In this document: piece by piece, positions 35,413 to 40,857 of the stretch
Numbering within the stretch: position 1 is the first letter of the stretch
How the letters are laid out: the number at the start of each line of letters is the position of its first letter
Assembly: GCA_025361165.1 (NCBI GenBank)
Contig: JANYAU010000093.1
Span: forward strand, 1 to 47,047
Direction: 5' to 3'
DNA: 47,047 bases
DNA from: Betaproteobacteria bacterium
GTDB taxonomy: Bacteria > Pseudomonadota > Gammaproteobacteria > Burkholderiales > Thiobacteraceae
Made by a program: the position numbers and the translations under genes
The notes under the pieces: generated by a model
The model's input: only the letters and a program-made list of their open reading frames with translations
Told to the model about the DNA's origin: nothing
Databases searched by the model: none

Positions 35413-36222
35413 GTGGAGGCCACTCAAACCATCGCGCCTGAATGGCGCCCGATTCCGCCGCGTGCGACGCAGCTTGCTTATGCTGCGCGCAGCGATACTG
35501 GTCGCGTGCGCAGCAGTAATGAGGATAGTCTAGAATTCGACCTAGAAACGGGGCTGATGGTGCTGGCGGACGGCATGGGCGGTTGCAATGGCGGCGAAAT
35601 CGCGAGCGCGATGGCGATCAATATTGTTTCGGGCGAGTTTCGACAATTACCTTTAACGTTGCCATCAGACGAAGTGGCGTCAGCCGGTCTGAGTAGTGCG
35701 GCGATGCGCTTGTGTACCGCGATTGCCAAGGCTAATCGCGAGATATATCAGCATGGGCTCATGCAGCCGCAACTTTCCGGCATGGGCACGACACTGGTTG
35801 CAGCCTTGTTTTTAGGCGCGCGCGTGACGATTGCCAGCATCGGCGATTCGCGGGTGTATCGCTTGCGGCAGGGGCACTTCGAGCAACTCACGGTGGATCA
35901 CACTGTGGTGCAAGAGCAAGTTGAGTATGGATTGATTACGCCGGAACAGGCCCGGCTCGCTGGCAGCCGCGGGTTGATCACCCGGGCACTGGGCGTGGAA
36001 GCGGGTGTGGAAGTCGATGTGCAAGAGCAGCCGATACTGCCCGGCGATGTGTTTTTGCTATGCTCCGACGGCTTGTTCGATATGTTGGACGACACGGAAA
36101 TTCAGTTCGTGATTGACCATGCCGGCGGCGACTTGGAAACTGCGGCGGAGCACCTGATTGATGCCGCTAACCACAAAGGCGGTTACGATAATATTTCGGT
36201 GATTTTGGCGCGGGCAGCGTAG
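35413..36222 (+). CDS. PP2C-family Ser/Thr protein phosphatase (module 1)
   Basis: SNEDSLEF, LADGMGG, GDSRVYRLR, LLCSDGLFDML, GGYDNISVI metal/catalytic motifs intact; GTG start. Confidence 0.93.
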   Translation: MEATQTIAPEWRPIPPRATQLAYAARSDTGRVRSSNEDSLEFDLETGLMVLADGMGGCNGGEIASAMAINIVSGEFRQLPLTLPSDEVASAGLSSAAMRLCTAIAKANREIYQHGLMQPQLSGMGTTLVAALFLGARVTIASIGDSRVYRLRQGHFEQLTVDHTVVQEQVEYGLITPEQARLAGSRGLITRALGVEAGVEVDVQEQPILPGDVFLLCSDGLFDMLDDTEIQFVIDHAGGDLETAAEHLIDAANHKGGYDNISVILARAA

Positions 36223-36260
36223 GCTGCGCTTCCGCCACCCTATCTGGCGACGGAAGTGAT

Positions 36261-37016
36261 ATGTCTAAACTGATTATTTACGACCAGGACGGTGCCGCGG
36301 TGCGAGAGCAGCAACTCGATCGCGAGCGCGTCAAGATCGGCCGTCGCGCCGATAGCGACATCCCGCTCGAACATATATCCGTGAGCGGCGAACATGCGCT
36401 CATTACCACCATCCGCAATGACTCTTTTCTGCAAGATCTCGGCAGTACCAATGGCGTGCGCGTGAATGGCAAACTGGTCAAGAACCATCACTTGCAGAAT
36501 GGCGACGAGATCAATATCGCCATCTTTAATCTTAAATATGTGTTCGAACCTTGGGTGATGCCGGAGAGTTCCTGGCCCGACACCGTGACCAACACCCTCA
36601 AGCAATCGGTGATGGCCGCCGCAGGCGCCAATGCGACGCTGCTAGAAATGGGCGTGGATGATAACTTTGATCTGACCCGCGAAATGACCGGCAACCGGAT
36701 GTTCGATAGTCCTGCCGTAGGCAAGGAAGCGACTGCGGTAGCAGAAAGATCGCGGCCCGGCATGCTACGTTTGATGGGCGGGGGGGCGGGAGCGGGTAAG
36801 CAATTGGAGCTGACCAAGCCGGTACTCACATTGGGTAAGCCAGGCATTCAAACTGCGGTGATTGGGAAAAAATCGGCGGGGTACTTTTTGACTTATGTCG
36901 AAGGGGTGAGTTATCCCTTAGTCAATGGTGTCGAAGTTGGCGCGACGCCGTATCCTCTGCAAGATCACGACATTGTCGAGGTGGCGGGGACCCGCCTGGA
37001 GTTTTTTTATAAGTGA
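36261..37016 (+). CDS. FHA-domain protein (module 1), N-terminal FHA plus degenerate C-terminal FHA-like repeat
   Basis: KIGRRADSDIPLEHISVSGEHALI..DLGSTNGVRVNGKLV; C-term VLTLGKPGIQTAVIGKKSAGYFLTYVEGVSYPLVNG. Confidence 0.9.
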   Translation: MSKLIIYDQDGAAVREQQLDRERVKIGRRADSDIPLEHISVSGEHALITTIRNDSFLQDLGSTNGVRVNGKLVKNHHLQNGDEINIAIFNLKYVFEPWVMPESSWPDTVTNTLKQSVMAAAGANATLLEMGVDDNFDLTREMTGNRMFDSPAVGKEATAVAERSRPGMLRLMGGGAGAGKQLELTKPVLTLGKPGIQTAVIGKKSAGYFLTYVEGVSYPLVNGVEVGATPYPLQDHDIVEVAGTRLEFFYK

Positions 37017-37042
37017 GCAGTGAGCGGTAAACTAAGCGCCGC

Positions 37043-37462
37043 TTATGGCTTGACCTTGCCGCGCGAGGCCAATTCTGCGCGCACGCCATTATATATTGGC
37101 CCCCACACCGGATGGCCGATTTCAGTAGCTTCTAATTTAAAGCCCGGATCAATTTCGAACGCACGGCGGAATTCGTCGCGGCATTGCTTTTCTTGATTCG
37201 ACGAGCAGTAAATGAAGGCAAGGTATTTGTGGGCCGCAACTTGGTCGGAATTGAACGTGAGCCCCAGATGAAGCGCCTCTTGTAGACTTTTCTGGGCCGT
37301 GCTCAAGTTACCATCCTCATATTGCCGAATGCCGGTATTCAGGGTTTGCTCGGCCTTGCGCGGCGCAAGTTTGTCGATGCCGATCTCGCGCGCAGTTTGC
37401 GAGGCACAGCCAGTGACGAGTAATACAGCGGCGGCCACTATCAGCCAGCGGAACAGTTTCAT
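37043..37462 (-). CDS. TPR-containing lipoprotein, TssQ-like
   Basis: MKLFRWLIVAAAVLLVTGCAS lipobox; NTGIRQYEDGNLSTAQKSLQEALHLGL TPR; GHPVWGPIYN C-term motif recalled from T6SS-associated TssQ lipoproteins. Confidence 0.7.
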   Translation of the reverse strand: MKLFRWLIVAAAVLLVTGCASQTAREIGIDKLAPRKAEQTLNTGIRQYEDGNLSTAQKSLQEALHLGLTFNSDQVAAHKYLAFIYCSSNQEKQCRDEFRRAFEIDPGFKLEATEIGHPVWGPIYNGVRAELASRGKVKP

Positions 37463-37473
37463 GGTTTGCTCTC

Positions 37474-39036
37474 TCAATTTTGGAACTTGTATTTTATTTT
37501 ATGCGTGCTGCCGGGTGCGAGATCAATGGTCTTTGAATACGGGCTAAAGGTTGCGTTGACGATCAGAATAGTGTGTTTGCCAGAAGATAATTTCAAATCA
37601 TGCAGAGGCGGGGTAACGCCGAGACGCTGGCCGTCGACGAAGACCTCGCCCCAGGGACTGATGGCCAGCGTGACAGAGGCGTCGCCCATGGCAGTAGGCT
37701 TAGAAATCGTTTCGGATTTTTTCGCGGTATTGATTTTGGCTTTTTCGTTTTTCGTTTTGGTTTTTTCCGTGGCCTGGGTTAAAACCGGCTTGTCCGCCGG
37801 GGTTGCCTCGTGTTTGGTATCGCTAACCTCTTTTGGCGCATCGGCTATGGCAAGTACTGGCGCAGCGGGTTGCGCCGCCGGTGCCGCCTGCTGTGCCATG
37901 CCGGGGCTAAGACTCGTTGCGGGTGGGGCTGCTTGGCTTGACGTTGTGGTCGGCGGCGCGGGTTGTTGTTTGGTCTTGCTCAAAACAACGACTGCAGCAA
38001 AGGTGACAATCATCGCCGGGATTGCGGCATAAAGCATAAAGCGTTGCGTGTTCCACCAACCATCGCGCGAAGCGAGCCCGTTTACGGTGCCAGAGGCGTT
38101 GGCGTTGAGGGGCACTAAGCTGGGCATAATTTGGGTGGTGTCGCCCAAATTCTCGCGCAGCTGCTTGCGGCGCTCCATGCTCTCTTCCGGCTTAGGTTGT
38201 TCACCGGAGGCCGAGATATCCATGGTTTTGTAGCGCTTAAGATCGCGCGCCATTTCCTTGGCATTTTGGTAGCGTTTGTCCGGATGCTTAGCCAGCGCTT
38301 TGAGCACGATAAAGTTAATCGAGTCGGGGATGTTCTGGTTGAAGGCTTTGGGCGGGATCGGCTCATCGTTCAGAATCTGATACATGATGGCGCTGATATT
38401 TTCGCCCGCGAATGGTGTTTTTCCGGCGAGCATTTCATACAGCACCACGCCGAGCGAAAAAATATCGGAACGGCCATCGACGGCTTGCCCCACCACTTGC
38501 TCCGGCGACATGTACTTGGGCGAACCCATCACCATCCCGGACATGGTGCGCGAGGCGGAAGACATTTGCGCGATGCCGAAGTCGGTGATTTTTACCAAGC
38601 CGTTTTTCATCACCATTACATTGGCCGGCTTGACGTCGCGATGGACGATGCCATGTTCGTGCGCAAATCCCAAACCATCGGCGACTTGCGAGGCGATATG
38701 CGTTATTTTTTCGATCGGCAGTACGACACCGGAGTCGAGAATTTCACGCAGTTCCTTGCCTTCCAGGAACTCCATCGCCATATAGGCCACGCCTTCAGTG
38801 CGGCCGACGTCGTAGACAGTGACGATATTGGGATGGTTGAGTTTGCCGGCAGACTGCACTTCACGTTGGAAGCGCTTCTCGAAATTGGCCAGCTCCTCTT
38901 TGGAGAGGTCGAGGTTGATGGTTTTGATCGCGACCGTGCGGTCGATGAGCGGATCTACGGCCTTGTAAACGACGCCCATGGCGCCCTGACCGATCTCCTC
39001 GACGATCACGTAGCGGCCGAGTTTCTCGATGACCAT
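37474..39036 (-). CDS. Transmembrane Ser/Thr protein kinase with C-terminal PEGA domain
   Basis: IGQGAMGVVYKAVD, VAIKTI, HRDVKPANVMV, DFGIAQ; TM MLYAAIPAMIVTFAAVVVL; PEGA-like ISPWGEVFVDGQRLGVTPPLHDLKLSSGKHTILI. Confidence 0.93.
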   Translation of the reverse strand: MVIEKLGRYVIVEEIGQGAMGVVYKAVDPLIDRTVAIKTINLDLSKEELANFEKRFQREVQSAGKLNHPNIVTVYDVGRTEGVAYMAMEFLEGKELREILDSGVVLPIEKITHIASQVADGLGFAHEHGIVHRDVKPANVMVMKNGLVKITDFGIAQMSSASRTMSGMVMGSPKYMSPEQVVGQAVDGRSDIFSLGVVLYEMLAGKTPFAGENISAIMYQILNDEPIPPKAFNQNIPDSINFIVLKALAKHPDKRYQNAKEMARDLKRYKTMDISASGEQPKPEESMERRKQLRENLGDTTQIMPSLVPLNANASGTVNGLASRDGWWNTQRFMLYAAIPAMIVTFAAVVVLSKTKQQPAPPTTTSSQAAPPATSLSPGMAQQAAPAAQPAAPVLAIADAPKEVSDTKHEATPADKPVLTQATEKTKTKNEKAKINTAKKSETISKPTAMGDASVTLAISPWGEVFVDGQRLGVTPPLHDLKLSSGKHTILIVNATFSPYSKTIDLAPGSTHKIKYKFQN

Positions 39037-39072
39037 GTAATTTAAGGAATATGCCGGCAAGTTAGGAGACCT

Positions 39073-39101
39073 AAAGTAGTTTTTATCGGCAACCGTGTCA
39101 A
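39073..39101 (-). promoter_or_regulatory. Sigma70-like promoter of the kinase gene (TTGACA-N17-TACTTT)
   Basis: Perfect -35 TTGACA on reverse strand with 17-nt spacer; weak -10. Confidence 0.45.
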
Positions 39102-39171
39102 GTTACTGAACCCCAGCGTGCCTCAAGTTTTGCTACACGCCACCCGTTAAACGGGAGACTGCGCATTGAGT

Positions 39172-39188
39172 TTGGCACAAAAACTGCT
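39172..39188 (+). promoter_or_regulatory. Sigma54 (RpoN)-like promoter upstream of second PP2C-FHA module
   Basis: TTGGCACAAAAACTGCT: GG and GC dinucleotides at -24/-12 spacing vs consensus TGGCACGN4TTGCW. Confidence 0.55.
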
Positions 39189-39332
39189 ATTTTAAGTAAA
39201 AATCCTTGTGGGGTATAAGGTATTCTAGCTGCATGAACAAAAGTTAAATTATGCCAGCAACGGCAACGGTAACATTTCAAAACGCGTTATACAAATAAGC
39301 CTGCGGTTGCCTAGCGGGAGAGAGTGCGATCG

Positions 39333-40145
39333 ATGAAGCTCAAGCATGCGCTTACCATAGCCAGCGCGACCGACGCGGGCCTGGTTAGAAATTTCAATGA
39401 GGACAGCGTTACGGCCGACGAAGATTCCGGCCTCGTAGTGCTGGCCGACGGCATGGGTGGCTATAAAGCCGGCGATGTGGCGAGCGGTATGGCGACCATG
39501 ATTATTGGCAACGAACTCAAAGAAAAGTTTGCCAAAGGGGTGGGAAAGTCCAACGGTGTGGACTTAGAGACTGAGTTATTGCGCGATGCGGTGAGCCGTG
39601 CCAACCAAGCCATCTATCATGCGGCACACAATAAAACACAGTTTCAGGGTATGGGCACCACCGTTGTCATCACGCTGTTCCGCGATAATATTGTGACTAT
39701 CGCGCACGTTGGCGATTCACGCTTGTACCGTTTACGTAACGACAAATTGGAGCAACTTACGGTAGACCATTCCTTGTTGCAAGAGCAGGTGCAACTGGGG
39801 CTGATATCGACCGAAGACGCCCGGGTTTCGCATAATCGCAATTTGGTGACGCGCGCCTTGGGCGTGAACCAGACGATAGCCGTGGACGTGCGCCAAGAGC
39901 GCTCACAGCCGGGTGACATTTACTTGCTATGTTCCGATGGCTTGAACGATATGGTGGATGACGCCGATATCGAGCTCGCGATGGTGTCGATCAAGGAGAA
40001 TATTCCCTTGTTGGTACAGCAGTTGGTGCTGATGGCCAACGACAACGGCGGTCACGACAATATTTCGGTCGCAGCCATTAAAGTGGAAAAACCGTTTCCG
40101 CTGCGCACCGGATTTTTTTCGCGCTGGTTCAGCGCTCACGCTTAA
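39333..40145 (+). CDS. PP2C-family Ser/Thr protein phosphatase (module 2)
   Basis: FNEDSVTADEDSGLVVLADGMGGYKAGDVASG, GDSRLYRLRNDKLEQLTVDHS, LLCSDGLNDMV, GGHDNISVAAI; start at ATG 39333 or upstream in frame. Confidence 0.93.
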   Translation: MKLKHALTIASATDAGLVRNFNEDSVTADEDSGLVVLADGMGGYKAGDVASGMATMIIGNELKEKFAKGVGKSNGVDLETELLRDAVSRANQAIYHAAHNKTQFQGMGTTVVITLFRDNIVTIAHVGDSRLYRLRNDKLEQLTVDHSLLQEQVQLGLISTEDARVSHNRNLVTRALGVNQTIAVDVRQERSQPGDIYLLCSDGLNDMVDDADIELAMVSIKENIPLLVQQLVLMANDNGGHDNISVAAIKVEKPFPLRTGFFSRWFSAHA

Positions 40146-40161
40146 ACGAGGTTTTTAAGGT

Positions 40162-40857
40162 ATGGCAAAGCTAGTTTTGAGTTTGAACGGGTCGGTGATC
40201 GGCAATTATTTCCTAGAAAAGGAGCGCTTTTCCATCGGGCGCAAACCAACGTGTGACATTCAGATCAACGACCAGGGTGTGTCCAAGGAGCACGTGGTCA
40301 TTCTCACCGTGGGTAACGATCAAATTTTGGAAGACTTGGGGTCCACTAATGGTACCCAAGTAAACGGACAAGACACTAAACGCCAGATATTGCAGAATGG
40401 CGACGTGATCGAGGTCGGGCGCTACCGCGTAAAATTCGTCAGCCAAAAAGCCATGCCGGATATGGATTTCGACAAGACATTGATGATCCCCGCGTTTGAC
40501 CGCACTAAGCTCAGGCAAGAGGAGGCGGACAAGCGCGGGCCAGACACAGAAAGTATATCCACGGCGGTCGCCAATGCGCGCAACGTCAAAACCATCTTTC
40601 CGCTAGGCGCGGTACACGGGATCAGTGGCGAACTTGCGGGGCAAGAAATCGAATTGGTGCGCGCGATCACTGCTTTGGGTAAACCTGGCAGCAGCGCCAT
40701 TATTAGCCGTCGCCCGGCGGGCTATTTTATTACGCATGTCGCCGGCAAGAAACATCCCATCGTCAACGGCAAAAGCATCGGCGATAGTCCGTTCCCGCTG
40801 GATAATCTGGATCAACTTGAAGTGGGCTTGGACAAACTTCAGTTTTATCTAAAGTAA
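40162..40857 (+). CDS. FHA-domain protein (module 2), same two-part architecture as module 1
   Basis: FSIGRKPTCDIQINDQGVSKEHVVI..DLGSTNGTQVNGQD; C-term ITALGKPGSSAIISRRPAGYFITHVAGKKHPIVNGKSIG. Confidence 0.9.
   Translation: MAKLVLSLNGSVIGNYFLEKERFSIGRKPTCDIQINDQGVSKEHVVILTVGNDQILEDLGSTNGTQVNGQDTKRQILQNGDVIEVGRYRVKFVSQKAMPDMDFDKTLMIPAFDRTKLRQEEADKRGPDTESISTAVANARNVKTIFPLGAVHGISGELAGQEIELVRAITALGKPGSSAIISRRPAGYFITHVAGKKHPIVNGKSIGDSPFPLDNLDQLEVGLDKLQFYLK

Follow-up and report, generated by a model that had tools for sequence, protein, structure and literature searches.

In the H1 type VI secretion system (T6SS) of Pseudomonas aeruginosa, TagQRST-PpkA-PppA-Fha1 constitutes a threonine phosphorylation pathway with an envelope lipoprotein, a kinase, a PP2C phosphatase and an FHA protein. 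In Acidovorax citrulli, the outer-membrane protein TssW, encoded between ppkA and fha, binds PpkA and positions it, and its partner in the two-hybrid assay is the periplasmic domain of PpkA (PMC12607579). Here, we describe a locus with similar components at positions 35,413–40,857 of a 47,047-nucleotide stretch (the window; contig JANYAU010000093.1 of assembly GCA_025361165.1, forward strand) from a Betaproteobacteria bacterium (order Burkholderiales, family Thiobacteraceae). The locus is real, conserved and, as far as searches for TssC and TssK go, free of T6SS, and it probably encodes a chromosomal, T6SS-independent trans-envelope phospho-switch.

All six open reading frames were present at the positions and on the strands given in an initial annotation of the window. 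The annotated order of PP2C-1 and FHA-1 (+), lipoprotein and kinase (−), and PP2C-2 and FHA-2 (+) was borne out by the gene coordinates and by searches with Pfam and NCBIfam hidden Markov models (HMMs), in which the two PP2Cs, the two FHA proteins, the TssQ-family lipoprotein and the kinase (Pkinase and PEGA) were all matched. The kinase–lipoprotein and PP2C-2/FHA-2 genes diverge from an intergenic region at 39,037–39,323, the presumed site of both promoters. This divergent layout of module 2 and kinase–lipoprotein is conserved in many families and in Thiobacillus, Sulfuricella and Sulfuriferula, the named holders of the locus including Thiobacillus denitrificans RG, Sulfuricella sp. T08 and Sulfuriferula multivorans. 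Because the module occupies the same place between dnaB-alr-radA and SDR-hpnEDC across families (at least five: f1, f15, f29, f34 and f46; flanking genes named by eye), the locus is inherited core chromosome and no mobile island.

The lipoprotein and its PEGA neighbour

The lipoprotein gene (37,043–37,462, minus strand, likely ATG start at 37,462) encodes a member of NCBIfam family NF038027, TssQ_fam (108 bits, cut-off 65). In the alignment its lipobox Cys19 is followed by Ala at +2, a residue that, under the usual sorting rule, suggests an outer-membrane location. The AlphaFold2 (AF2) model is a helical repeat with a predicted local distance difference test score (pLDDT) of 87 and TPR proteins as the nearest folds; the fold search returned TPR-like matches only, all above an E value of 1e-3. 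A C-x7-C...HxxW pattern was found in all 96 TssQ-family members, including C86, C94 and HPxW of the locus lipoprotein. The strict invariance of Cys86, Cys94 and HPxW suggests a periplasmic disulfide and a candidate functional site. The TssQ of the Bacteroidota T6SSiii is, according to its description (PMC10781749), a helical protein of the inner membrane, and identity of the locus lipoprotein with it was rejected, the two being different proteins by that description.

The kinase gene lies directly upstream of the lipoprotein gene (37,474–39,036, minus strand, likely ATG start at 39,036). It encodes a Hanks-type Ser/Thr kinase (Pkinase, 201 bits) with one predicted transmembrane (TM) segment at about residues 334–352 (37,981–38,037), the most hydrophobic 19-mer after the kinase domain. 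A C-terminal, predicted periplasmic PEGA domain follows at residues 464–520 (37,477–37,647; 25.6 bits, cut-off 20.8) and is the sole PEGA match in the genome.

To examine the gene context of the family, HMMs built in this analysis were applied to the regions around 96 TssQ genes. A PEGA protein was a near neighbour in 89 of the 96 loci, usually encoded by the gene directly upstream. The catalytic heads of these 89 PEGA proteins were kinases (38), class III nucleotidyl cyclases (43) or other domains (8), and the cyclase-head loci continue as a rule with the lipoprotein and then a PEGA-less kinase. At the genome level, surveyed in 300 genomes of the order with profile searches run one family at a time, TssQ and Pfam PEGA occurred together in 78 genomes and alone in 14 each (odds ratio (OR) 77; P = 2.6e-42, a value only indicative because the counts include related genomes). 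In a second, species-overlapping collection, 78 of 80 loci had a PEGA neighbour, including loci of Deltaproteobacteria such as Syntrophus, and so did three TssQ genes drawn from further families of the class. A natural TssQ–PEGA fusion in one open frame was found at locus L084 (8,970–9,764). We regard this association as the most useful new point of the analysis. Most simply, lipoprotein and PEGA domain would form a periplasmic input unit with a variable cytoplasmic head, and the association suggests that the outer-membrane lipoprotein belongs with the sensor domain and not with T6SS.

Further arrangements were seen among these loci. The L084 fusion sits inside a T6SS locus that also holds a kinase-PEGA gene and a separate TssQ lipoprotein gene. 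At locus L045 (8,558–11,420) and 42 similar loci, one operon encodes a cyclase-TM-PEGA protein, a TssQ lipoprotein and a Ser/Thr kinase without PEGA, and a juxtamembrane motif resembling FDSxxATMRLAA is frequent. These operons may represent a version of this input pair that works through a second messenger.

The association could also stem solely from inherited operon linkage, the two proteins not being physical partners, since much of the sample comes from one order and operon order is heritable. We consider this explanation unlikely: the catalytic head is swapped between kinase, cyclase and other domains while the PEGA–lipoprotein pair persists, the pair is found again in further families of the class as well as in Deltaproteobacteria, and the natural fusion exists.

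Two PP2C–FHA pairs and candidate phosphothreonine sites

PP2C-1 (35,413–36,222, plus strand) and PP2C-2 (39,324–40,145, plus strand) both exceed the cut-off for Stp1/IreP-type Ser/Thr phosphatases (NF033484; 235.5 and 238.7 bits, respectively, cut-off 230) and are the putative erasers of modules 1 and 2. Both carry the motifs NED, ADGMGG, GDSR, CSDGL and DNIS, located in PP2C-1 at NED36, ADGMGG52, GDSR144, CSDGL217 and DNIS259, and the kinase retains GQGAMG-16, VAIK-35, HRD-132, DFG-152 and SPE-177. With every listed motif found, the annotation of the catalytic motifs of all three enzymes as intact held.

Each PP2C gene is followed by a gene for an FHA protein, FHA-1 (36,261–37,016, plus strand) and FHA-2 (40,162–40,857, plus strand), which match PF00498 at 71.6 and 76.2 bits and are the putative readers. 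The description of both as an N-terminal FHA domain plus a degenerate second half agreed with profile comparison and pocket residues. The two halves are homologous (hhalign probability 96.5, E = 7.8e-10). The phosphothreonine pocket is preserved in the N-terminal one (R27 and S41 in 25/25 sequences, H44 in 24/25), whereas in the second its Arg, Ser and His have been lost. A PDB sequence search with the second half gave no meaningful match. In the AF2 model of FHA-2, two beta domains are separated by a disordered linker (residues 97–144, pLDDT <50), and the nearest structures are the FHA domains of OdhI and GarA.

An acidic-x-Thr-x-x-hydrophobic pattern, [DE]xTxx[LMIV], recurs in the FHA-2 linker and in the juxtamembrane segment of the kinase. 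It was present in 25 of 29 non-redundant module-2 FHAs (shuffled mean 4.0, maximum 9) and 28 of 37 non-redundant type-A kinases (shuffled mean 2.5, maximum 7), counts to be read with the pattern having been drawn up after viewing the sequences and the segments having been cut automatically, some taking in part of the FHA domain. The candidate phosphosite in FHA-2 is Thr106 in DFDKTLMI (codon 40,477–40,479, plus strand), and the kinase motif GDTTQIM (residues 298–304; 38,125–38,145, minus strand) is a candidate autophosphorylation or FHA docking site. Because FHA-1 lacks the conserved linker threonine motif (6/15, shuffled mean 3.7), the two FHA proteins are probably not equivalent readers and may do different jobs.

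The pairs are paralogous (PP2Cs 45% and FHAs 34% identical), but the view that they are a simple duplication of one module was not supported. In the PP2C tree, modules 1 and 2 form separate groups, each spanning several families, and PP2C-2 joins the PP2C-3 of a third pair rather than PP2C-1 (Shimodaira–Hasegawa-like approximate likelihood ratio test, 95), so that the two PP2Cs are not each other's closest paralogs; FHA-1 and FHA-2 likewise fall into separate groups at 99–100, FHA-1 in the module-1 clade at 99, all trees being quick searches without bootstrap. Modules 1, 2 and 3 are separate old lineages. A recent tandem duplication of the PP2C–FHA pair was rejected because the lineages predate the divergence of the families.

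The third pair lies elsewhere in the genome, cut by the end of a contig (L139; G000:C56:1-1480); its neighbours, named by eye, are a dynamin-like GTPase gene and an S4-type RNA-binding (Hsp15-like) gene. The genus and other families contain orthologous loci; in the other families, the third pair comes after a CHASE2-like kinase of ~850 amino acids (named by eye), as at L181 7,067–11,229 in family f15. At another locus of f15 (L183 9,678–12,193) the pair shortly precedes a type IV pilin-like gene, a possible sign of a connection with pili.

These pairs raise the possibility, which we hold doubtful, that kinase and lipoprotein form one sensor and that the PP2C–FHA pairs also serve other kinases in a wider phospho-network. 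The genome holds five Pkinase, four PP2C and four FHA matches, the third pair stands after another kinase in other families, and in family f48 module 2 lies apart from the kinase. The conservation of the divergent module-2/kinase–lipoprotein layout in many families and the three named genera argues against this network.

Type VI secretion and phage defence

The initial annotation likened kinase, PP2C and FHA to the PpkA/PppA/Fha switch of T6SS. The likeness is apt for the TM kinase with a C-terminal periplasmic domain and for the PP2C, but not for the FHA proteins. These exceeded the cut-offs of PF00498 and Yop-YscD_cpl only; the T6SS_FHA_C domain of Fha/TagH was not found in them, and they scored 32–46 bits with TIGR03354 (cut-off 120).

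The genome search for tss genes proposed with that annotation, made for TssC (PF05943) and TssK (PF05936), detected neither in the genome of origin, which is 93.65% complete. TssC was also absent from G135 (98% complete) and from G050 and G095 of the same family (99%). Among the genus relatives, TssC was detected in three of six and TssK in two of those three, with TssC always on another contig than the locus, and the module layout recurs in many T6SS-free relatives. Taken together with the missing T6SS_FHA_C domain, these results support the initial view of a stand-alone kinase, PP2C, FHA and lipoprotein switch without T6SS.

The annotation of the lipoprotein as TssQ-like was correct as to family, but the T6SS link implied by the name did not hold in this order. 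Among the 300 genomes, the TssQ family was over cut-off in 92 and TssC in 71; the two co-occurred in 23, the level expected by chance, indicating that TssQ and VipB/TssC are independent (OR 1.1, P = 0.77). By coordinates, TssQ and TssC lay within roughly 20 kb of each other in only about 9 of the 92 TssQ genomes. Because the lipoprotein family tracks PEGA-domain membrane proteins, the TssQ label says little about T6SS.

Some genuine T6SS loci do carry this family. The gene order at L094 is kinase-PEGA, TssQ, Fha, PP2C and ImpA_N, and at L272 TssQ is flanked by Fha- and TssJ-like frames (read by eye), which matches the position reported for tssW. From gene position alone, we infer that A. citrulli TssW is a member of NF038027.

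It is thus conceivable that the locus is a threonine-phosphorylation regulator of a T6SS that was lost or missed in the assembly. The lipoprotein passes the cut-off of a T6SS-associated NCBIfam family, three genus relatives carry TssC, two of them with TssK, and L094 shows the same components in order. Against it stand the absence of TssC and TssK from the genome itself and of TssC from the three nearly complete relatives, the FHA proteins without T6SS_FHA_C, the separate contigs in relatives with T6SS and the independence of TssQ and TssC. A role of the locus as T6SS regulator finds no support in these results, and we regard it as quite improbable. A phage-defence kinase system such as PD-T4-6 is very improbable, as the PADLOC models that match the locus kinase (393 bits) match Hanks kinases broadly and were judged non-specific, neither the lipoprotein nor either FHA protein has a PADLOC match, and the locus resides in a conserved core context from radA to hpnEDC in many families and in no variable island.

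Proposed switch and comparison with described systems

In the T6SS-independent phospho-switch that we favour, the outer-membrane TPR lipoprotein would work with the periplasmic PEGA domain of the inner-membrane kinase, as the gene association and the natural fusion suggest. An envelope signal received through this pair would alter the activity or position of the kinase, which may phosphorylate acidic-x-Thr-x-x-hydrophobic sites in the FHA-2 linker and, on itself, in the juxtamembrane segment. The FHA domains would then bind such phosphothreonines and relay the state to cytoplasmic targets, and the two PP2Cs would erase the phosphorylation and reset the switch.

Several points weigh against this proposal. 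The PEGA domain is short and weak; related genomes enter the association statistics more than once; and 7 of the 96 TssQ loci lack a PEGA neighbour, with tssC lying within about 20 kb in 5 of these. The genome falls about 6% short of completeness, FHA-1 departs from the linker pattern, and at the locus we infer rather than observe physical contact, phosphosites, FHA ligands, signal and output.

We give even weight to the broader idea, and to its contrary, that the TssQ/TssW-family TPR lipoprotein and the PEGA ectodomain form a general outer-to-inner-membrane couple for varied heads, with T6SS as one client and not the origin, and with the present locus as an independent kinase form that has two readers and two erasers. 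The analysis sets a kinase–PP2C–FHA–lipoprotein switch apart from type VI secretion, makes the curated, T6SS-associated name TssQ look misleading for most members in this order, and offers a testable partner for the little-studied PEGA domain. In the collection of papers searched, no relevant work turned up on PEGA together with cyclase and lipoprotein or together with protein kinase. If the lipoprotein–PEGA pair is real, one periplasmic input unit would serve both protein phosphorylation and cyclic-nucleotide enzymes in Betaproteobacteria, and the scope would include the culturable Thiobacillus denitrificans and Sulfuricella.

Among the described systems, the Stk1/PknB PASTA kinases with Stp1 PP2C resemble the locus in that its PP2Cs pass the Stp1/IreP cut-off and its kinase domain is PknB-like. 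The locus kinase differs in having PEGA in place of PASTA and scores below the Stk1/PknB PASTA kinase cut-off (365.9 against 450 bits). The PknB–GarA and OdhI switch shares the combination of a kinase and a short FHA protein, and the FHA-2 fold is nearest to OdhI and GarA; however, the candidate threonine of the locus lies in the linker after the FHA domain and not at the N terminus, and the locus proteins have an extra degenerate FHA half and score below the OdhI cut-off (48–55 against 200 bits). The TagQRST-PpkA-PppA-Fha1 pathway follows the same logic of envelope lipoprotein, kinase, PP2C and FHA, whereas the genome search, aimed at TssC and TssK and not at TagRST, found neither of the two, and the locus lipoprotein belongs by name to another family. 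The nearest experimental parallel, by analogy, appears to be TssW-PpkA-Fha with PppA of A. citrulli (PMC12607579), which likewise combines an outer-membrane-anchored periplasmic protein, an inner-membrane Ser/Thr kinase with a periplasmic domain, an FHA protein and a PP2C; the present locus differs from it in standing apart from T6SS, in its short FHA proteins without T6SS_FHA_C and in the two PP2C–FHA pairs that flank the kinase.

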